Part shown: piece by piece, positions 1,587 through 22,952 of the stretch
How the letters are laid out: every line of letters starts with the position of its first letter
Position numbering within the stretch: the stretch's first letter is position 1
NCBI GenBank assembly: GCA_025454475.1
Contig: JALOOJ010000013.1
Span: 1 to 36,815, forward strand
Length of the DNA stretch: 36,815 bases
Origin: Anaerolineae bacterium
GTDB lineage: Bacteria > Chloroflexota > Anaerolineae > B4-G1 > SLSP01
Direction: 5' to 3'
Made by a program: the position numbers and the translations under genes
The notes under the pieces: model-generated
What the model saw: only the letters and a program-made list of their open reading frames with translations
What the model was told of the DNA's origin: nothing
Database searches by the model: none

Positions 1587-1614
1587 TTGACCTGTGCGTG
1601 AGCTGTGATAGCGT
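1587..1614 (+). promoter_or_regulatory. candidate promoter for the acyltransferase gene
   Basis: TTGACC, a 16-bp spacer and TAGCGT preceded by TG (extended -10) lie in the divergent intergenic region. The -10 is poor, so this is a weak call supported mainly by the spacing shared with stronger promoters in the window. Confidence 0.35.
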
Positions 1615-1690
1615 GAGCAAACAGGGAGCCATCAGGCTTGCCTGCATCATAGCACTGGAGCAACGCAGCTCAAACACGAAGGGCAGGTCT

Positions 1691-2809
1691 ATGCCAGACC
1701 AGGAGACCACGATCGCCTATCCCAGACGGCGGCTGGCTCGGGGACTGCTGCGAGGGCTTGGGCGGGTACTGGTCCCACTGCTCACACGCACGCAGGTCAC
1801 CGGTGCTGAACGCTTTCCCCCGAGTGGGCCGCTCATCGTGGTTGGGAATCATATCGCCGCGATGGAGGTCGTGCTGATGGTGGTCCACGCACCGCGGCCT
1901 ATGGAGATGCTCGGTGCAGGCGACATCGCGGCGCCTCCGCTTATGGACGCCATCTCGCGACTCTACGGCTTCATCCCGGTCAACCGGGGCAACTTGGATC
2001 GCCCGGCTCTGACCCAGGCGCTGGATGTCCTCCGCCATGGGGGCGTTCTGGGCCTCTTCCCCGAAGGCGGCATCTGGGATCCCGGCGCCATGGAGGCCAA
2101 GCGCGGCGTCGCCTGGCTCAGCTACCACGCGAGGGCCCCGATCCTCCCCATTGGCTTCGGCAGTCCGGAGGGCGCGCTCAGGGCAACGCTCATGTTTGGG
2201 CGCCCTCGATTGGTGATGGCTATAGGGGAGCCTCTGCCGCCCATCGATCTGCCTCCGGGTGTGCCCCGCCGCGAGGGATTGCAGCGTGCCGCAACCGCCA
2301 TCATGGATGCCGTCGATAACCTGATCCCTGCCGCGTACCGGCAGCAACGAGCTACGATCACTGACGAACGCTTTGAGTTGAGACTCGCGGTCCACGACGC
2401 CACGGGCCAAGAGATACCCGTCCCGCCGTCCCTTACGCTGACGCATGCCGAGGCGCTGTGCAAGGTCTTCTACCGCCCCGCCATCTTGCGTATCTTCGTC
2501 AAGGACCTTCGCCTACCTGCTGTCGCCCTTCAGCAGCTTGAGCTTCACCCTTCACCAACCGACCTGGTCGCCGCCCTGGCCCCCATCCTGAACTACATCA
2601 CCCACGATAACCCTGGTTTCTTCCCCTACCGCTTTGGGACTCCAGGCGGCCTTGCCATGGGGGCCGGCGTCCGCGAGCTGTACGATCTAGCTGCCTGGGC
2701 GCGAGACTCGGGACACAGCCTGCTCATTCAGCCGATCCGCCGCTACCGCCTCGCCGGACAGAGCGAGGAGATTGTCGAGACGATGCCCGGTGAGGCGCAC
2801 GTGTGGTAG
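1691..2809 (+). CDS. PlsC-like glycerophosphate/lysophospholipid acyltransferase
   Basis: A 372-residue protein whose first ~230 residues match the PlsC acyltransferase fold, which moves a fatty acyl group onto a lysophospholipid at the inner face of the membrane. Visible blocks are H54-IAAM-E59 (the catalytic HX4D position, here HX4E), GFIPVNRGN near 93-101 and LFPEGG at 122-127 (family motif FPEGTRS). The C-terminal ~140 residues match nothing I recognise. The ATG at 1691 is chosen because the recognisable domain starts soon after it and GAAGGGCAGG lies upstream; an in-frame ATG at 1598 would overlap the candidate promoter. The next gene follows in the same direction after 45 bases. Substrate is not determinable, and Glu for Asp in the catalytic motif is unusual. 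Confidence 0.8.
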   Translation: MPDQETTIAYPRRRLARGLLRGLGRVLVPLLTRTQVTGAERFPPSGPLIVVGNHIAAMEVVLMVVHAPRPMEMLGAGDIAAPPLMDAISRLYGFIPVNRGNLDRPALTQALDVLRHGGVLGLFPEGGIWDPGAMEAKRGVAWLSYHARAPILPIGFGSPEGALRATLMFGRPRLVMAIGEPLPPIDLPPGVPRREGLQRAATAIMDAVDNLIPAAYRQQRATITDERFELRLAVHDATGQEIPVPPSLTLTHAEALCKVFYRPAILRIFVKDLRLPAVALQQLELHPSPTDLVAALAPILNYITHDNPGFFPYRFGTPGGLAMGAGVRELYDLAAWARDSGHSLLIQPIRRYRLAGQSEEIVETMPGEAHVW

Positions 2810-2854
2810 GTGCGAACGATTCCTTCAGGGGAAATCCTCAGTAAGCGAGGTGCT

Positions 2855-5365
2855 ATGCACACCATCACCCTGGGTCGGCGACCGACCTTTGGCGAAGTCG
2901 TTGACTACTATATGCAGGAGCAGTTCTTGCGTTATCTGTTGGACACAACAAGCAACCGTCGTGTCGTGCTCGTCATCGCTGCGCGCAAGCACTGGGAGCC
3001 CAACTGGGAAACCGATGGAATCAGGGGAGGAAATACCGACGATCTGCGCCGCTGGATCCAGGGCAAGGTGCAGCAGCACCTAGCCCATGTGTCGGCGGGT
3101 GATCGGCCTGATTACTACCCGGCTTTCCACCAATCCGTCTGGCGAGGCAGAGCCGATCAGCAGGTGATGGACTGCATCTTCGAGGCTGACCTACCCTCGT
3201 GGCGCGACGCTTTTCGCGATGTTGGCACCGTCGTCGCGCTGCTTGAGCAATACGGCGTGCCCTACCAATGCAAGTTCAGCGGGCATCGCAGCTTACACAT
3301 CGTCATCCCTGGCGAGGCGATGCCCCCAGGCTATCGCGGCACCGGCGCAAGGAGACTGGCCCGGCAGCTATTGCGGTGGAGCCATAGCCAGGCCCACACA
3401 CTTCCCAGGATAACCCGCATGCCCTACAGCCTTAACGAGGACACAGGCTTGGTGTGCCTGCCGATCGAGCCGGGCTTGCTCCGCTCATTCCGGCCATGGC
3501 AAGCGAACCTGCATCTGGTCGACATCTCCAAGCAGCCGCACAGCCCCGAGGTTGATGAGAGCCACCAGGATCACTTGGCGCAACTGCTCCAGGATCTCGG
3601 GAATGGTGCTGCAGACATAACACACCAAGGGAGCGTAACCAATCGCCCCACGTACGTCATCGACGATCCTGATCGAGTCTTGGCTCCGTATCGAGATCGC
3701 CTCAAGAGCCTCCACAGCAGCGGAGCGATCGGCCATGTCTGGGCACGGCTGGCAGGTGATCTCCCGGTGACGAATTCGGAACTAATGAACGGACTCTTGC
3801 AGGACGATCCGGACGTGGCATGGCTATGGGCCGAAGCCTATGTGTTCCACGGAACTACCGTCACGCCACAAGTCTTCGAGGCCCTACTCACGCAGGAAGA
3901 GGAGTACGCCCGGGCCTCTGCCACGGACATCTTGCTCAGGTTCGAGAGGGTGATCGTGCCCCTTGTCGTGCAGGCTATCCGTGAGCTGACCGTGTACACG
4001 GCGGTCGGGGCGAAGGCAGCCTATCTGCTGACTCAAAGCCCGTGGCTGCGACAAGCTGTGTTCGACGCGATTAGCGCCAGCGCTGACGACGCCCACGACG
4101 CACGTATCACCGTGGCGTGTTTGACCGGCGCCGTAACCAGCGACTGGTGCTCGGCGCTGGCACTGCTCGAGCCCATCAGGAAAACACCAGAGCTGCCACC
4201 ACACGAACGGGCGCGGCTGCGACGCAAGATCAGGGCTCTGGAGATAATGGCCACCCTCGGTGGATGGGACAAGGTGCATGAGGACGAGAAGGCCCGGCGT
4301 CTGGCAGCCCTGGGCCCTGAAGTCACAGAGCTGCTCCTGATGGCTGCCAACAGCCCGGAGCCTCGGTTCAGACGGGGGATTGTGACGGCTTTGGCGGTCC
4401 GTGCGGACCCGCGTGCCACAGAGGTGCTAATCCGCGCTCTCAACGACGACTACACCAAGGTGAGGCAGAAAGCGGTTGGGGGTCTCGTTCGGATCGGAAG
4501 GCCTGCTGTGGCCCACCTCATCAGCGCCGCCGATAGCGACCAGACACGCATCCGGCGTTATGCTCTGCTATGCCTGGGCAGAATCGCGCTATCGGATCCG
4601 GAGGCCGCGGCACGAGCGAGGAATGTAGTCGCGGGCGCCCTCGCTGATGGCGAAGAGGCTGTGCGCCGCACTGCGATAAGAGCTATGGCGAGCATGGCGA
4701 CACTGGATGATCTGGACATTCTCACGGCCTTGCTGGGAGAGGCTGAACCGGAGATCGCCATCGCTGCAACGTTGATACTCGAAGCACTGGGGATGGAAGG
4801 AACTGAGGCGCTCGGCGCGATGGCGATAGGTGAGCACGTTCCTGCGGCCGCCTATTACATCGCGCGTCAGGGGGACGCGAGGGGAAGTGAGATCCTCGCC
4901 GCGCAACTTGGGGACGAAAGCAAACAGAAAATCGCGGTCGAATACCTACGCGAGCTTAGAGATCCGCGGTGTGTCTCCTATCTGGTCGAGCAGATCAGAG
5001 AGTCAACGGATTGGCGAGGGATCTGGTTGGCGCAGGAACTGGGAGCAATAGGTGGCGATATCGCAGTGCAGGCACTGATCGAGACGCTATCGCGAGATGC
5101 GCACTTGATGCGCCGAGGGGCCGTCCGTGGCCTGGACACAGCACGGGATCCGGCAGCGATTCCGGCGCTCGTCGATGCCCTGGATGATGCCGACGGAAAG
5201 GTGCGCAAGCTGGCAGCCGATGCTCTGGTGCGCTTCGGTGAGGTAGCAACTGGGAGCCTGCACGAAGCGTTGGCACGGACGGGTGAACGCGATGGGCGCC
5301 GTCGCAGCATCCTGACGCAGATTCTCGGTAGGCTGGAGAGGTCGGCCCCGAGCGCCCAAAGCTAG
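2855..5365 (+). CDS. primase-like (AEP fold) N-terminal domain fused to HEAT repeats
   Basis: An 836-residue protein. Residues ~95-230 resemble the small catalytic subunit of archaeo-eukaryotic primases: E110-A-D112 in CIFEADLP at the place of the metal-binding DxD/DxE, S142-G-H-R-S-L-H148 at the place of SGxxGxH, and TRMPYSLNEDTGLVCLPI, which matches the 'R-x-PYSL-x-x-x-TGL' block of PriS-like proteins. From about residue 470 to 825 there are repeated helical pairs typical of HEAT/PBS-lyase-like repeats (for example ATEVLIRALNDDYTKVRQKA), usually a protein-binding solenoid. The middle ~200 residues are helical and unassigned. ATG 2855 is preceded by AAGCGAGG; a GTG at 2810, directly abutting the upstream stop, is an alternative adding 15 residues. 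Function is unknown. The primase assignment is by motif reading, and catalytic activity is uncertain because motif I begins with Glu and one motif II glycine is Ser. Confidence 0.7.
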   Translation: MHTITLGRRPTFGEVVDYYMQEQFLRYLLDTTSNRRVVLVIAARKHWEPNWETDGIRGGNTDDLRRWIQGKVQQHLAHVSAGDRPDYYPAFHQSVWRGRADQQVMDCIFEADLPSWRDAFRDVGTVVALLEQYGVPYQCKFSGHRSLHIVIPGEAMPPGYRGTGARRLARQLLRWSHSQAHTLPRITRMPYSLNEDTGLVCLPIEPGLLRSFRPWQANLHLVDISKQPHSPEVDESHQDHLAQLLQDLGNGAADITHQGSVTNRPTYVIDDPDRVLAPYRDRLKSLHSSGAIGHVWARLAGDLPVTNSELMNGLLQDDPDVAWLWAEAYVFHGTTVTPQVFEALLTQEEEYARASATDILLRFERVIVPLVVQAIRELTVYTAVGAKAAYLLTQSPWLRQAVFDAISASADDAHDARITVACLTGAVTSDWCSALALLEPIRKTPELPPHERARLRRKIRALEIMATLGGWDKVHEDEKARRLAALGPEVTELLLMAANSPEPRFRRGIVTALAVRADPRATEVLIRALNDDYTKVRQKAVGGLVRIGRPAVAHLISAADSDQTRIRRYALLCLGRIALSDPEAAARARNVVAGALADGEEAVRRTAIRAMASMATLDDLDILTALLGEAEPEIAIAATLILEALGMEGTEALGAMAIGEHVPAAAYYIARQGDARGSEILAAQLGDESKQKIAVEYLRELRDPRCVSYLVEQIRESTDWRGIWLAQELGAIGGDIAVQALIETLSRDAHLMRRGAVRGLDTARDPAAIPALVDALDDADGKVRKLAADALVRFGEVATGSLHEALARTGERDGRRRSILTQILGRLERSAPSAQS

Positions 5366-5515
5366 ACTGAGTACCGCCGAGCCGTCGGCCTCAGATCGCG
5401 CAACCTCTGTTGATGTCCCGCGTACATGACCATGGGTGTGTCACGACGCGGGTCCCTGTGCGTGGGTCAAGGGCCCTGCTCCAGAGGATAGCATCAGCAG
5501 TGAAAGGACGCGGAA

Positions 5516-6235
5516 ATGAACGAGGAAGCGATGGAAACTGAAGCGACTGAACACGAGATCCCGGTGAAGCTGACTACCAGAGCCGAAGTCACCGCGAAGA
5601 TAATGGCCCAACGCGATCTGAGCGGCGCAGATATGAGCGGCGCTGACCTGCCAGGGATGAAACTCGCCGGGCTCAAGATGCAGAAGGCGAACCTTGCCGG
5701 CGCCAACCTCGCCGGCGGGCTGTTCGCGGGCGCAGACATGGACCAGGCCGACCTCAGCGACGCCGATCTGACCGGCGCAAAGATGATGGGCGTGAATCTC
5801 GGGAAAGCCCTGCTCCGCAAGGTGAAAATGACTGCGGCAAGGGTCATGGGCGTCAACCTCGGAGGAGCCGATCTGACCGACGCTGACCTAACCGACGCAC
5901 GGTTGATGGGCACTAATCTGGAAGGCGTCATGGCTCGCGGTGTGAATCTGACAGCAGCCCAGGTGGTGGGCAGCAACTTCAAGAACGCGGACTTCGCGGG
6001 TGCCGACTTCACCAGCGCGACGCTCAAGCGCGTGGATGTCACCGGCGCCGACTTCAGCGATGTCGATACCACGGGCACACGCTCCGGCAAAGTGGACTGG
6101 TCCCTGGCCAAGGTGGCACCGGCCAAGTTGCCCGAGCCCATGCCCGAACCCCCGGCCTGGCTACCGGGCGCGATCGTGGGTGTCGGTGTCGTATTGCTGA
6201 TCTTGGCCCTGCGCAACAAACGCCGCAAGGCCTAG
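5516..6235 (+). CDS. pentapeptide-repeat protein with C-terminal membrane anchor
   Basis: A 239-residue protein. Residues ~35-185 are tandem A(D/N)LxG/x pentapeptides (ADLSDADLTGAK, ANLAGANLAGG and others), the signature of the right-handed quadrilateral beta-helix. A short charged N-terminus (MNEEAMETEATEHE) precedes them. After a Pro-rich linker (about 200-213) one hydrophobic segment (GAIVGVGVVLLILAL) and a basic tail (RNKRRKA) end the protein. With no signal peptide this looks like a tail-anchored cytoplasmic beta-helix; that topology is inferred. GAAAGGACGCGG upstream supports the start. The 150-bp gap before it shows no convincing promoter. Partner and role are unknown; gyrase-protecting pentapeptide proteins are a family comparison only, and none is known to me with this anchor. 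Confidence 0.85.
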   Translation: MNEEAMETEATEHEIPVKLTTRAEVTAKIMAQRDLSGADMSGADLPGMKLAGLKMQKANLAGANLAGGLFAGADMDQADLSDADLTGAKMMGVNLGKALLRKVKMTAARVMGVNLGGADLTDADLTDARLMGTNLEGVMARGVNLTAAQVVGSNFKNADFAGADFTSATLKRVDVTGADFSDVDTTGTRSGKVDWSLAKVAPAKLPEPMPEPPAWLPGAIVGVGVVLLILALRNKRRKA

Positions 6236-9752: not shown

Positions 9753-9858
9753 CGATCAGTGCTTGGGGACTAGGCCGGAGGCGGGCAACTGATCCCAGTC
9801 GCCAGTCAGCAATCCCCAGTCACTATTCCCCAATCCCCCATCAACCAGTCCCTAATCC
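9753..9858 (-). repeat. degenerate GGGGATTG-type repeat array in the aspS-gatC spacer
   Basis: On the minus strand the spacer is built of variants of GGGATTAG / GGGGATTG / GACTGGGGA. The array overlaps the last two codons of aspS. Several G-tracts of 3-5 (from GGGATTAGGG through GATGGGGG, ATTGGGG and GACTGGGG) follow one another, so the RNA could fold into a G-quadruplex. I see no gene or canonical terminator in it. Confidence 0.55.
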
Positions 9859-11243
9859 CGTCTCCTCATCTGAATGTGCAGCTCATCCAACTGCGCCTTC
9901 GTCACCGGCGCGGGCGCGCGCATGGTCAAGTCGCTGGCCTGGCGCGTTTTGGGAAAGGCGATCACATCGCGTATCGTATCCGTGCCGGCAAGGATCGCAA
10001 CCAACCGGTCGATCCCCAGGGCTATCCCACCGTGGGGCGGCGCCCCGTACTGGAACGCCTCGAGCAAGTGCCCGAAGTCTTCCTCGGCTTCCTCAGGCGA
10101 GTAGCCGAGAAGGCCAAGCACCCTCACCTGAAGCTCGCGCTGATGGATTCGGATCGACCCGGAGCCCAGCTCCCAGCCATTGCAGACCAGGTCATAGCAG
10201 TTCGCACGCACGGCGCCAGGATCCGCCTCCAACCGCGCAAGGTCCTTGGGTCTGGGGCTGGTGAAAGGATGGTGCTCCGAGTCCCAGCGACGCTTCTCCG
10301 GATCCCACTTGTAGAGTGGGAAGTCGACAACCCACGCAAACGCCAGTTGCTCGGGATCAGAGCGCAGGTCCGGCTTATCGGTCGCATAGCGCGAAATCGC
10401 CTCATCATAGGTTAGGCGGGGAAAGGGCGTGACGAGCCGTTTCTCAGGCACTGCAACCCGCACGATGGCAGCGATGAGTCGCTCCACCAACGCCAGCACG
10501 TCCTCCTGTCCCACGAAGCTCATCTCCAGGTCCAGTTGGCTGAACTCGGGCTGCCGGTCGGCGCGCAGGTCTTCATCGCGGAAGCAGCGAGCGACCTGGT
10601 AATAGCGATCGAATCCCGCGACCATCAGCAGTTGCTTCATCTGCTGAGGCGACTGCGGCAGTGCATAGAACTCGCCCGGGTGAATGCGACTGGGCACCAG
10701 ATAGTCGCGCGCGCCCTCCGGTGTGCTCCGCGTCAGAACAGGCGTCTCCACTTCGAGGAAACCCTCAGCATCCAGAGTGTCGCGCATTGCCTTGACCACC
10801 CGATGGCGCAACCGGAAGTTAGCCTGGAGCGCGCTGCGACGGAGGTCCAGATAGCGGTATCTCATTCGAAGCGCCTCATCCACGTCGGGCGCCTCCTCCG
10901 CTGTGAAGGGCAAGGGCTGCGTGGCGTTGAGGACCTCGATGAATCTGGCACCGACCTCGATCTCGCCTGTCAGGAGGGCCGGATTCGCTGTACCGCGAGG
11001 GCGCTCGTGGACGGTCCCCTGAACCGCAACAACGTAGTCATCCCTGAGCGTCTGCGCGACGGCGTATGCTTCAGGCGATGATCGCAGGTCGACGACCACC
11101 TGTACAGTGCCCTCGCGATCCCAGAGGTCGATGAAGATGAGACGACCGTGGTTTCGTCGAGTGCGCACCCACCCCATGAGCGTCACCTGCGCACCGATAT
11201 CCGCCGGCCCCAATGCCCCACAATGATGCGTTCGTTTCTCCAT
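9852..11243 (-). CDS. aspS: aspartyl-tRNA synthetase, bacterial type without GAD domain, probably non-discriminating
   Basis: AspRS charges tRNA(Asp) with Asp and, if non-discriminating, also tRNA(Asn). Residues ~1-105 form the OB anticodon-binding fold ([16 protein letters not shown]); the class II core follows with motif 2 ([20 protein letters not shown]) and motif 3 ([13 protein letters not shown]). The protein is 463 residues against ~590 for bacterial enzymes: after [10 protein letters not shown] it goes directly to [14 protein letters not shown], so the ~110-residue GAD insertion domain is absent. His32 (in RRNHG) and Gly84 (in RPRGTANP) align with the His31/Gly82 pair reported for the non-discriminating Pseudomonas AspRS, where discriminating enzymes have Leu and Lys. 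The gatCAB genes downstream complete an Asn-tRNA pathway. ATG 11243 begins the conserved domain, behind a G-rich sequence rather than a clear Shine-Dalgarno. Expression appears controlled by the leader at 11275-11541. Confidence 0.96.
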
Positions 11244-11274
11244 ACCCCTGCCCCCTAGTGTGCTCAAGCTAACC

Positions 11275-11353
11275 AAAAAGCCACGGGCCTCCGTGGCTTC
11301 TCATGGACTTGGCACAAGAAAAGCCACGGGTGTTTCTGTGCGCCCGTGGCTTT
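11275..11353 (-). promoter_or_regulatory. aspS transcription attenuator: overlapping alternative hairpins and two terminators
   Basis: Reading the minus strand, four related segments follow the leader peptide: 1 (11353-11343, AAAGCCACGGG), 2 (11330-11318, CCCGTGGCTTTTC), 3 (11302-11291, GAGAAGCCACGG) and 4 (11286-11275, CCGTGGCTTTTT). 1:2 is an 11-bp stem followed by U's. 3:4 is a 9-bp stem with a 4-base loop and five U's. 2:3 is a 12-bp stem with one G-U and excludes both. Segment 0 inside the leader ORF (11404-11393, GTGCGCCTGTGG) pairs over 12 bp (one G-U) with 11349-11338 and would block 1:2. This is the exclusive-pair layout of amino-acid biosynthetic attenuators. The pairing is seen; the regulation is inferred. 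Confidence 0.75.
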
Positions 11354-19265: not shown

Positions 19266-19796
19266 ATGGAGAAACTGCGCTCCCAAAAGCCTATCTACAC
19301 GGTCCTGATCGCTATCATCATCGCGACAATCCCGTGTTATTGTCTCGGGTTCGTGGCATTGGCGATACGGCCATCGCAAGGTCCATCAGAGCCGACGGGA
19401 ACCCTGACAGCGACGCCGACCTCTCAGGTGACGTTGACGCCCTTTGAGGTGGGCCCTGGTACGGGCACCCCAGCCAGGACGCTGGGACCGACACCGACGC
19501 AGTGGTTCCCCCCAACCCGTACCGCCACACCGGAGACGACAGAAACGCCAACGCCGACCGTGACGCCGACGGACACGCCGACGCCATCTCCCACCGTGAC
19601 CGGGGAGCCCACAGCGACGCCCACCTCCACAGGTACGGCGACCCTGACACCGTCGCCCACAGCGACCGAAACTGCGACAGCAACGGCGACGCCGACACTG
19701 GAACTGCCGACCGAGACACCGACGCTGACGCCGGAGCCTACAGTCACAGATACCCCAACGGTCACCGCCACGGCTGTCATCACCACCACGCCCTGA
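19266..19796 (+). CDS. membrane-anchored Thr/Pro-rich protein
   Basis: A 176-residue protein. Residues ~10-33 are one hydrophobic helix (YTVLIAIIIATIPCYCLGFVA) after a short basic N-terminus. The rest is almost entirely Thr, Pro, Ser, Ala and Glu in TPT/TPSPT-like repeats with no folded domain. Such sequences act as extended extracellular linkers or stalks, often glycosylated, and are common in Chloroflexota surface proteins; here the stalk carries nothing at its end. The coding DNA is a run of ACGCCGACG-like repeats. It ends 20 bases before the first M42 peptidase start, on the same transcript. The ATG at 19266 has no good Shine-Dalgarno. Confidence 0.7.
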   Translation: MEKLRSQKPIYTVLIAIIIATIPCYCLGFVALAIRPSQGPSEPTGTLTATPTSQVTLTPFEVGPGTGTPARTLGPTPTQWFPPTRTATPETTETPTPTVTPTDTPTPSPTVTGEPTATPTSTGTATLTPSPTATETATATATPTLELPTETPTLTPEPTVTDTPTVTATAVITTTP

Positions 19797-19816
19797 CCGA
19801 TCACGGGAGGAGCTTA

Positions 19817-20872
19817 TTGGAGACCCTCGAACTACTTACGACACTGACGGAAGCCTCAGGGCCAGCCGGGTATGAGCATGCAGTGACCCACATCGTCGCG
19901 GATCTGTGGCGCCCCTGGGCCGACGAGATCCGCGTGGACGCTATGGGCAACCTCATCGCCGTACAACAGGGAACGGGACCGCAGCCCAGGCGCGCGGTGA
20001 TGGCAGCTGCGCACCTGGACGAGATCGGCCTCATCGTCACCGGGTTCGACGGCGAGTTCCTGCGCGTGCATTCGCTGGGCGGCGTGGACCGGCGCGTTCT
20101 GCTAGGTCTGTCGGTCCGCGTCCACAGCCGCCGGGAGATCCCGGGCGTGATCGGCAGTCGTCCACCCCACGTGCTCCCCCCGTCCGAACGGCAGAATGTC
20201 CTTCCGTGGCATGAGGTCATGATCGACGTTGGCCTACCTGCAGAGGAGGTCAGGGCGCTTGTCCGCGTCGGCGACCCCGTGACCATACGACAATCCACGA
20301 TGGCGCTGAAAAACGGACGCGTCGCCGGTAAGGCCATGGACAACCGCGCCTCTGTGGCTGCACTGACACTGGCACTTGAGGCACTTCGCCACCGTGAGCA
20401 CGCCTGGGATTTCTACGCTGTGGCGACAGTGCAGGAAGAGGTCGGCGTCAAGGGTGCCATTACGAGCGCCTACGGTATCAGCCCCACTATCGCGGTCGCC
20501 CTCGACGTAACATTCGCCAGGCAGTACAACGACAGCAATCCGGGCGTGTTCGAGCTGGGCAAAGGCCCAACCATCGGCGTAGGACCCAATTTCCACCCAC
20601 AGATGGTCAAACGCTTGGCCGAAGCTGCAGAGAGCGATGAGATCCCGATTGAGTTGGAACCGCTCCCCGGCTCGAGTGGAACTGACGCCTGGGGCATCCA
20701 GGTCGCCAGAGAGGGGATCCCTTCGGGCCTGATCTCAATCCCAGTGCGCTATATGCACCAGCCTGTCGAGACGGTCGCCTTGGTCGACATCGAGCGTGCC
20801 GGACGGCTGCTGGCTGGATTCGTCTGCGGGTTGGAGCACGGCTACACGCCCCGATGGGAGGACGAGGTATGA
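19817..20872 (+). CDS. M42 family aminopeptidase, first of three
   Basis: A 351-residue metallo-aminopeptidase of the M42 family (FrvX/TET type, large self-compartmentalised dodecamers that trim peptides). Metal and catalytic residues are in place: His-x-Asp in AAHLDEIG, Asp in GKAMDNRAS, Glu-Glu in TVQEEVGVKGA, Asp in VALDVT, and the last His in RYMHQP. The TTG start at 19817 is set by GGGAGGAG four bases upstream and by the onset of family sequence (ETLELLTTLTEASGPAGYE). Its TGA overlaps the ATG of the next paralogue (ATGA). Relative to the next two it has a longer middle segment (residues ~115-145, SRPPHVLPPSERQN). Confidence 0.93.
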   Translation: METLELLTTLTEASGPAGYEHAVTHIVADLWRPWADEIRVDAMGNLIAVQQGTGPQPRRAVMAAAHLDEIGLIVTGFDGEFLRVHSLGGVDRRVLLGLSVRVHSRREIPGVIGSRPPHVLPPSERQNVLPWHEVMIDVGLPAEEVRALVRVGDPVTIRQSTMALKNGRVAGKAMDNRASVAALTLALEALRHREHAWDFYAVATVQEEVGVKGAITSAYGISPTIAVALDVTFARQYNDSNPGVFELGKGPTIGVGPNFHPQMVKRLAEAAESDEIPIELEPLPGSSGTDAWGIQVAREGIPSGLISIPVRYMHQPVETVALVDIERAGRLLAGFVCGLEHGYTPRWEDEV

Positions 20873-21918
20873 GCGCCTTGATAGACCATCTGGGGATCCT
20901 GTCGAACGCGCCGGGCATATCGGGGAACGAGATTGCAGTCCGTCGTGCCATTCGGCCGATGATCGAGCAGCATGTTGGCGGCCTGCACGTGGATGTGATG
21001 GGCAACCTCATCGCGCACAAAGCAGGAGACGGCACGTCGCCATTACGCGTCCTGGTAACAGCGCATATGGACGAGGTCGGGCTGATGGTCGTGGGCTACA
21101 CGGGGGATGGCGAACTACGGGTCGCCACCGTCGGGGGTATTCCTGACCGGCTGCTGCCTGGCCTGACCGTATTGGTCGGCGAGGAGTCGCTGCCGGGGGT
21201 CATTGGGCTGACGGCAATCCACCGCGCGGGCAAGGGAGATCTCGAGAAAGCCCCTGGTGTGGACCAGTTAGCCGTGGACATCGGCGCAAACAGCAAAGAT
21301 GAGGCAAAGCGGTTGGCTCCAGTGGGTACGCCTGTCGTGTTCAGCACGCGTTTCGAGACAATGGGCACCTGCTGTGCCGGAAAGGCATTCGACGATCGTG
21401 CAGGATGCGTCGCCCTGATTGCGCTGCTCAGCGGTCAGCCCTTTCCGTTTGAGATCACCGGTGCATTTACCGTGCAGGAAGAAGTCGGGCTGCGCGGCGC
21501 ACGGGTCGCCGCATACAGCGTCGATCCCGATGTGGCCATTGTGCTGGAGGGTACGTTGGCCGACGACCTTCCCAAGGTGGAGCCTGACGTCAGTCCCACG
21601 ACAACGTTGGGACTCGGTCCCGCAGTGACGGTGAAGGACAGTTCGTATACCACCCCTCCGCGACTGCTGCGCCACTTTGTAGAGGTAGCCGAAGCCGAAG
21701 GCATCCCATATCAACTCAAGCAGCCTGGCGTCGGTGGAACCGATGCCGGAAGCATCCACCAGGCGAGAGCTGGGATTCCCACGATTACGGTGGCCGTCCC
21801 GTGTCGCTACATCCATAGCCCTATCTCTCTAGTACGCGACAGCGACCTGGCAGCTTTGGTGCGCCTTGTCGACATCGCCGCTCGACGGATTACGGCTGAT
21901 GTCATCCGTCCTCTGTAG
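20869..21918 (+). CDS. M42 family aminopeptidase, second of three
   Basis: A 349-residue paralogue. Metal ligands are readable as TAHMDEVG, KAFDDRAG, TVQEEVGLRGA, VLEGT and RYIHSP. The fourth position is Glu (VLEGT) where the flanking paralogues have Asp (LDVT, VDVT). In M42/M18/M20-type enzymes an Asp/Glu difference at this metal ligand accompanies differences in substrate or metal preference; that is family knowledge, not shown here. ATG 20869 overlaps the upstream stop by four bases, and GGGAGGACGAGG upstream acts as ribosome-binding site inside the previous gene. Confidence 0.93.
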   Translation: MSALIDHLGILSNAPGISGNEIAVRRAIRPMIEQHVGGLHVDVMGNLIAHKAGDGTSPLRVLVTAHMDEVGLMVVGYTGDGELRVATVGGIPDRLLPGLTVLVGEESLPGVIGLTAIHRAGKGDLEKAPGVDQLAVDIGANSKDEAKRLAPVGTPVVFSTRFETMGTCCAGKAFDDRAGCVALIALLSGQPFPFEITGAFTVQEEVGLRGARVAAYSVDPDVAIVLEGTLADDLPKVEPDVSPTTTLGLGPAVTVKDSSYTTPPRLLRHFVEVAEAEGIPYQLKQPGVGGTDAGSIHQARAGIPTITVAVPCRYIHSPISLVRDSDLAALVRLVDIAARRITADVIRPL

Positions 21919-21953
21919 AACGCGTGAGGCAGACTCCGAAGAAGGAGACACCC

Positions 21954-22952
21954 TTGGATCTGGCACTTCTCGAAAAGTTAACTCAGACCTATGGCCCCTC
22001 GGGATACGAGGACGCGATCCGTGCCGTCATTGGCAGCGCCATCGAGGCTGTTGCGGATGAGACACGGGTGGATCCCCTCGGCAGCCTCATCGGCTATCGC
22101 CGTGGTCAGGGAGGCGCACACGACGGCAAGCGTGTGATTCTGGCCGCCCATATGGATGAGATCGGCCTGATCATCACCCATGTGGAGGAGAAAGGATTCC
22201 TCCGGTTCACCTCCATTGGCGGCGTACGCGCGGCCCACTGCATCGGAACAAGGGCCACATTTGCCAATGGTATCACGGGCCCCATCTACGTGGAACGGCG
22301 GGATGATGCCTCCAAGCTCCCAGAACTGCAGCATCTGTATCTGGACATCGGCTGCGCAGATCGCGCCTCGTGTCCGGTACGCGTTGGGGACACGGCTACC
22401 TTCGTCGGTCCCCTGATGCAGCGAGGGTCACGACTGATCAGCAAGGCCCTGGACGACCGAATCGGCTGTTATGTTTTGATCGAGGTCATGCGCCGCCTGG
22501 ATAATTCAGCTCACGACGTCTACTTCGCGTTCACGACCCAGGAAGAGATCACCCTGTCCGGCGCACGGACCGCCGCGTACCGGATCGAGCCGGATATCGC
22601 TATCTCCGTTGACGTGACGGCGACAGGCGATGTACCCAAGGCACTGCCGATGGAAGTGAGCCTGGGCCAGGGGCCAGCCGTAAAGGTGAAGGATGGCGGC
22701 ATGATCGCCCATCCCCATGTCCGCGATCGCCTTGTCGAGGCAGCGGAACGCGCCGGCGCGCCCTACCAGATGGAAGTCCTGCTGGGCGGTACCACCGACG
22801 CAGCGGCGATGCAGCTTGTGAGATCTGGCGTGCCGAGTGGTTGTCTCAGTATCCCTTGCCGGTATGTTCACTCCCCTTCAGAAATGGTCGACCAGGGGGA
22901 CGTAGAGCATGCGATCGAGGTGCTGCTTTCGCTGCTCCGCGAAACGCTGTAG
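21954..22952 (+). CDS. M42 family aminopeptidase, third of three
   Basis: A 332-residue paralogue with AAHMDEIG, KALDDRIG, TTQEEITLSGA, SVDVTATGD and RYVHSP. The Glu-Glu pair is followed by I-T-L-S rather than the usual V-G-x-(K/R), a local change next to the catalytic site. The TTG start at 21954 is chosen for the AAGAAGGAGA five bases upstream; an in-frame GTG at 21924 is possible. It lies 35 bases after the second paralogue and completes the transcript. I see no hairpin terminator in the 143-bp gap that follows. Confidence 0.93.
   Translation: MDLALLEKLTQTYGPSGYEDAIRAVIGSAIEAVADETRVDPLGSLIGYRRGQGGAHDGKRVILAAHMDEIGLIITHVEEKGFLRFTSIGGVRAAHCIGTRATFANGITGPIYVERRDDASKLPELQHLYLDIGCADRASCPVRVGDTATFVGPLMQRGSRLISKALDDRIGCYVLIEVMRRLDNSAHDVYFAFTTQEEITLSGARTAAYRIEPDIAISVDVTATGDVPKALPMEVSLGQGPAVKVKDGGMIAHPHVRDRLVEAAERAGAPYQMEVLLGGTTDAAAMQLVRSGVPSGCLSIPCRYVHSPSEMVDQGDVEHAIEVLLSLLRETL

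Follow-up and report, generated by a model that had tools for sequence, protein, structure and literature searches.

The window (the whole stretch of 36,815 nucleotides that was analysed) carries an open reading frame of 836 codons on the + strand, at 2855–5365, between genes for an acyltransferase and a pentapeptide-repeat protein. The ATG at 2855 is supported as its start by the alignment of MHTITLGRRPTFGE with the family start MATVCTFGRRPTLGE. An earlier note had described the product as a primase-like domain, recognised by three blocks of the archaeo-eukaryotic primase (AEP) fold, fused to HEAT repeats. All three blocks were found, namely CIFEAD at residues 107–112, SGHRSLH at 142–148 and RMPYSLNEDTGLV at 188–200, and the fusion is confirmed by homologues, predicted fold, motifs and Pfam HEAT matches. 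The coordinates are collected in Table 1.

Table 1. Features of the AEP-HEAT locus, in window coordinates.
Feature	Position	Strand	Basis or remark
Acyltransferase, left neighbour	1598..2809	+	Kept at empty sites
Segment present here, missing in three same-genus genomes	2810..5388		Flank alignments; edges approximate
AEP-HEAT fusion gene, 836 aa	2855..5365	+	Open frame; start backed by family alignment
AEP (primase-polymerase) domain, residues 5–256	2867..3622	+	hhalign Prob 99.7; AF2 pTM 0.81; VIA-align Z 16 to 6sa0_A
Motif I CIFEAD (E110, D112)	3173..3190	+	E-x-D usual in fusion family
Motif II SGHRSLH (H148)	3278..3298	+	Alignment of family rows
Expected motif III carboxylate region, residues 172–184	3368..3406	+	Without Asp/Glu; family Asp opposite T182/H181
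Conserved RMPYSLNEDTGLV block, residues 188–200	3416..3454	+	Family alignments
HEAT solenoid, residues ~272–830, ~34 helices	3668..5344	+	AF2 model; Pfam HEAT_2 1e-28; Foldseek alphaRep/karyopherin/CAND1
AEP-HEAT junction, residues 290–361	3722..3937	+	BLASTP alignments through residue 361; co-linear with Poribacteria fusion proteins
Pentapeptide-repeat protein, right neighbour	5516..6235	+	Kept at empty sites

In three genomes of the same genus, the MFS, acyltransferase, pentapeptide-protein and gatB genes stay neighbours, and the AEP-HEAT gene is missing between the acyltransferase and the pentapeptide protein. Since these genomes keep the flanks without the gene, it is accessory. The right flank aligns with them up to about 24 bp from the AEP-HEAT stop codon. 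The segment edges show neither a target duplication nor an inverted repeat, and the composition is not foreign (GC3 of 0.69–0.73, compared with mostly 0.68–0.79 in the neighbours). The pattern is most simply explained by gain in this lineage, the alternative being loss in the others. DnaG was found in every host tested, which means that the AEP-HEAT protein is not the replicative primase. As the earlier note held, no LigD, CRISPR or mobile-element gene is recognised among the annotated neighbours, nor was a conserved neighbour seen that would indicate a pathway or partner. Elsewhere in the window, an aspartyl-tRNA synthetase gene beside gatA and gatB (9852–11276, − strand) encodes 474 aa instead of the usual ~600 aa, and a further AspRS, of ordinary length, is encoded in this genome; three consecutive M42 peptidase genes occupy 19502–22952 on the + strand.

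We now turn to the N-terminal domain. Single-sequence searches with it (class, phylum, genome, viral, plasmid and phage sets) gave no close relative, and the matches L022, L043, L044 and some others were short and judged to be noise. Pfam gives a weak LigD_Prim-Pol match under the cut-off (E 0.013), NCBIfam gives HEAT-type matches only, and the curated PriS models of both resources do not match the window protein. PADLOC and PHROGs revealed no AEP system in the window. With PF01896 and PF21686, the AEP-HEAT ORF alone was recovered from its own genome, weakly, and no LigD Pol elsewhere in it; in the class, the same models returned LigD-type proteins and not the AEP-HEAT gene. In the viral set, contigs L048–L059 encode, around 8001, a LigD_Prim-Pol domain (1e-13) followed by a LigD 3'-phosphoesterase (6e-8), with no ligase domain in the same protein.

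Comparison with the family is far more informative. Residues 6–256 align with Poribacteria AEPs in hhalign with Prob 99.7 and E 1.2e-26, the AEP-HEAT relative L142b is matched by BLASTP at 6e-34 over residues 5–361, that is, across the junction, and a profile of the homologue set reaches eukaryotic PriS in the PDB (E 2e-6) via the motif III/PYSL block. An AlphaFold2 model of the domain, built with 17 sequences, has a pLDDT of 79 and a pTM of 0.81. It superimposes on Prim-PolC with Z 16.0 over 223 residues at 3.8 Å (VIA-align; Foldseek was also run), and the scores for LigD Pol, human PriS, P. furiosus PriS and CAPP are 15.9, 13.3, 12.8 and 10.6, respectively. The structural comparison proposed in the earlier note thus matches both the PriS and the LigD-Pol folds, and the RRM-like palm, the absence of which had been named as grounds for abandoning the assignment, is present in the model, with Z of 10–16 to many AEPs. 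As far as prediction can settle such a question, the fold is settled.

The idea that the N-terminal domain is unrelated to AEPs and carries the motifs by coincidence draws on the weakness of the single-sequence searches and of Pfam taken alone. It is contradicted by the hhalign result, the fold match, the BLASTP relative and the tree described below, and we give it practically no credence. Because whole-domain homology, the BLASTP relative and the predicted fold agree, the motif match is not chance. On the alignments and the model, the domain is best described as a divergent homologue of the AEPs, in ancestry and predicted fold, and not as a demonstrated active AEP, since the motif III acid is absent.

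AEP catalysis normally requires the acids of motifs I and III and the histidine of motif II (PMC5862659). The window protein keeps motif II, D112 and R188-PYSLN. The earlier note took the Glu that opens motif I and the Ser at a motif II glycine as possible signs of altered activity, and neither is peculiar to the window copy. Against the superfamily pattern of motif I, hhhDhD/E, CIFEAD of the window protein has Glu in place of the first Asp; all seven readable AEP-HEAT rows have E-x-D here, so that E110 follows the rule of the fusion family and is not in itself a sign of decay. Ser at the motif II position is common across the bacterial AEP clade; SGHRSLH has the expected sxH, and SG-x-x-S-L-H is kept across the fusion rows. 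From the alignments, the key oddity of the window copy, absent from the earlier note, appears instead to be the loss of the motif III acid (hD/E). The first Asp or Glu after E154 is E195, and the family Asp aligns with T182, adjacent to H181. Asp occupies this site in L143, L144 and L142a and Glu in L142b, which makes four Poribacteria fusion members, motif III being unclear in L147 and L148. In the Lentisphaerae-labelled member L068 this site is His, and an Asp stands four residues upstream of it. In the model, residues 170–190 have moderate confidence (pLDDT ~71–76), and there is no strand at 176–186, where that of motif III is expected. H181 or another residue might replace the missing third ligand. 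In the RepE/RepS AEPs, Gln replaces the motif III Asp (PMC5862659). A missing motif III Asp is accordingly no proof of inactivity, and for this reason catalysis in the window copy is graded as probably weak or lost rather than dead.

The C-terminal part forms tandem helical hairpins that match HEAT models. In the full-length model (pLDDT 81) the protein is helical from about 272 to 830, with about 34 helices, and this arm resembles alphaRep, CAND1 and karyopherins in Foldseek. Pfam (HEAT_2, 1e-28) recognises HEAT from ~493 onward only. The earlier assignment of the C-terminal third to HEAT repeats is therefore right as to type and too short as to extent, since the modelled solenoid makes up about two thirds of the protein, around twice the length noted earlier. 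The charge of the window protein's HEAT part, acidic to neutral (net −11), would suit docking on a protein more than wrapping of DNA. Docking deduced from charge is not uniform across the fusion proteins, since the HEAT arm of L142b from Poribacteria is basic.

To find further members, the decisive search was for the DNA pattern RxPYSL[NH]xxTGLV in the genome collection, which gave 24 loci, including archaeal PriS, four Poribacteria loci and one Lentisphaerae-labelled contig (L068). Alignments A3 and A4, used solely for steering search patterns, contain scrambled artificial rows; a pattern from A4 retrieved phage Pol-PE proteins. As the pattern misses RLAYSL relatives, the known distribution is incomplete. 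Within these bounds, the fusion recurs in Poribacteria and in the Lentisphaerae-labelled bin, which answers the question of distribution raised in the earlier note. Truncated within the AEP domain by the start of its contig, L068 matches the window protein at 30% identity in 645 columns (1e-62), beginning at the PYSL block and continuing through the HEAT arm, and this co-linearity indicates that the architecture is conserved. Its genome, G687, is a bin of 14.1 Mb that may be mixed, so that L068 could come from another host. The AEP family occurs in 7 of 84 genomes of the Poribacteria phylum, several of them multicopy, with stand-alone (~262 aa), tandem (~640–674 aa) and AEP-HEAT architectures, and with up to five copies per genome. 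Pfam confirms HEAT in L142b, L144 and L147 and finds it weakly in L143, while L142a, L145 and L148 end at contig edges before any HEAT part. Among 400 genomes of the window's phylum the family is found at high score in this genome alone, and among 268 of the L068 phylum in that of L068 alone.

When 45 AEP domains were placed in a maximum-likelihood tree, the seven AEP-HEAT rows cluster together (100/97) within a 20-row bacterial AEP clade (99/91), the L147/L148 rows having an unusual composition and a long branch. This clade is separate from DPANN PriS, other archaeal PriS, LigD and phage Pol-PE, which places the window protein outside both the PriS and the LigD groups; its annotated neighbours also include no ligase or Ku. 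The window protein has all the traits of the AEP-HEAT group, that is, a GRRPTxGE-type start, E-x-D, SGxxSLH, PYSLN/AYSLN, HEAT after ~290 and a place in one tree group. No AEP domain of the bacterial clade that was tested scores above the cut-off of a curated model, and the window protein belongs to a bacterial branch of the AEP superfamily without a name in the resources searched. A full-text search of the literature found no description of an AEP and HEAT fusion, with an earlier survey mention being possible.

Most of what is known of AEPs in bacteria concerns LigD/Prim-PolC repair, proteins linked to CRISPR, and mobile elements. The closest match, Prim-PolC of Mycobacterium smegmatis (5op0/6sa0), is likewise a small bacterial non-replicative AEP of the same fold, at 19% identity. 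Its acidic triad is intact and its partner is LigC, which was not seen near the window gene; it is not known to have a HEAT arm. The LigD polymerase domain (PF21686), nearly as close in fold, lies on a separate branch of the tree, and the window protein stays under its Pfam cut-off. With PriS (PF01896, TIGR00335) the window AEP shares the R-x-P-Y-S-L-N/H-x-x-T-G-L block and an N-terminal YY...R region, and DPANN PriS align along the entire domain; it differs in its branch, its short motif II–III spacing and the lost motif III carboxylate, and it has a fused HEAT arm where PriS has its PriL partner. In PolpTN2, the PriS-PriL fusion of plasmid pTN2, a single polypeptide likewise carries an AEP and, C-terminal to it, a large helical region (PMC5862659). 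This region resembles PriL, with a predicted Fe-S cluster, and not HEAT; the acidic triad of PolpTN2 is intact and its motif II His is changed, opposite to what is seen in the window copy.

We favour, with confidence and doubt about evenly balanced, an accessory AEP that is docked via its HEAT arm and binds nucleotide or nucleic acid, catalysis being weak or lost in the window copy. We infer that the HEAT arm would dock the protein onto a partner and that the AEP palm would bind a nucleotide plus a nucleic-acid end. The family at large would probably act as a primase-polymerase or end-filling nucleotidyltransferase of the Prim-PolC/LigD-Pol kind; with the third metal-binding carboxylate gone, the window copy would probably have little or no catalysis left and would retain binding. 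The suggestion in the earlier note of altered activity or nucleic-acid binding only hence remains the best-fitting one, with motif III as the relevant site. A fully active primase-polymerase, using E110, D112 and a substitute ligand such as H181, with the HEAT arm PriL-like or a clamp in repair or replication restart, is a serious but clearly less probable candidate. Motif II is intact and the motif I acids are present, Prim-PolC with gapped DNA gives the best match in the structural comparison, RepE/RepS tolerate motif III replacement (PMC5862659), and other fusion members keep the Asp/Glu; however, the stretch between E154 and E195 is free of any acid, the motif III strand is missing from the model, and the HEAT part is not basic.

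It is unlikely, in our view, that the fusion family is non-catalytic throughout, acting as a nucleotide or nucleic-acid sensor or adaptor. Such a pure pseudo-enzyme would accord with the fixed Glu-for-Asp at the first motif I position, the loss of motif III in both the window copy and L068, and the lack of further motif residues in the second AEP of tandem relatives, but four Poribacteria fusion members keep the motif III Asp/Glu together with motif II. More improbable still is a conflict or defence module, in which the gene would be patchily distributed and spread horizontally, and its AEP would target damaged or invading nucleic acid, in some cases coupled to an ART/Tpt1-like domain. Presence and absence within one genus, multicopy expansion in few Poribacteria, ART-like domains inside two fusion-family proteins and near two other AEP genes, and a PADLOC HEAT-ARM match all point this way. 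Against it, that match covers the HEAT repeats only, the window shows no recognised defence gene nearby, no link to CRISPR, nuclease or integrase was seen, and the family was not found in the phage, plasmid or viral collections.

Beyond the accessory AEP that we prefer, one can speculate, as a rather doubtful extension, that AEP-HEAT is a new accessory system for processing or sensing nucleic-acid ends, in which the HEAT arm would target a PriS-like palm, sometimes with an ART/Tpt1-like domain, to damaged or foreign nucleic acid, and repeated loss of catalysis would turn enzymes into sensors. In any case, a separate bacterial AEP branch, in which architectures of its own occur (single, tandem, HEAT-fused and ART-inserted), lies under the Pfam/NCBIfam cut-offs, and it offers natural pairs with and without the third catalytic acid for testing AEP roles besides priming.

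Finally, some observations on the Poribacteria relatives, where AEP gene contexts are scattered, deserve mention. Tandem-AEP proteins (L149:3161–5182, L152:4627–6636, L146:1891–3813 and L062) combine one intact-looking AEP with a second copy without motif II and/or III residues. A domain with the pattern LWHGTT...SIL..GF (PARP/Tpt1-like, ART-like) is inserted in two AEP-HEAT family proteins of genome G690 (L144:1334–3589 and L142:145–1107; Pfam E 0.006–0.01 in L142), and free-standing ART/Tpt1-like proteins (L062:4154–5011 and L154:285–1445) are encoded within a few kb of two other AEP genes; judged from sequence, this association hints at a role in nucleic-acid damage or conflict. In four genomes, a stand-alone AEP gene is followed by one for a conserved protein (~600 aa if complete, with a C-terminal DUF4097; L154:5430–8050, L070, L076 and L079), and the two form a possible operon.
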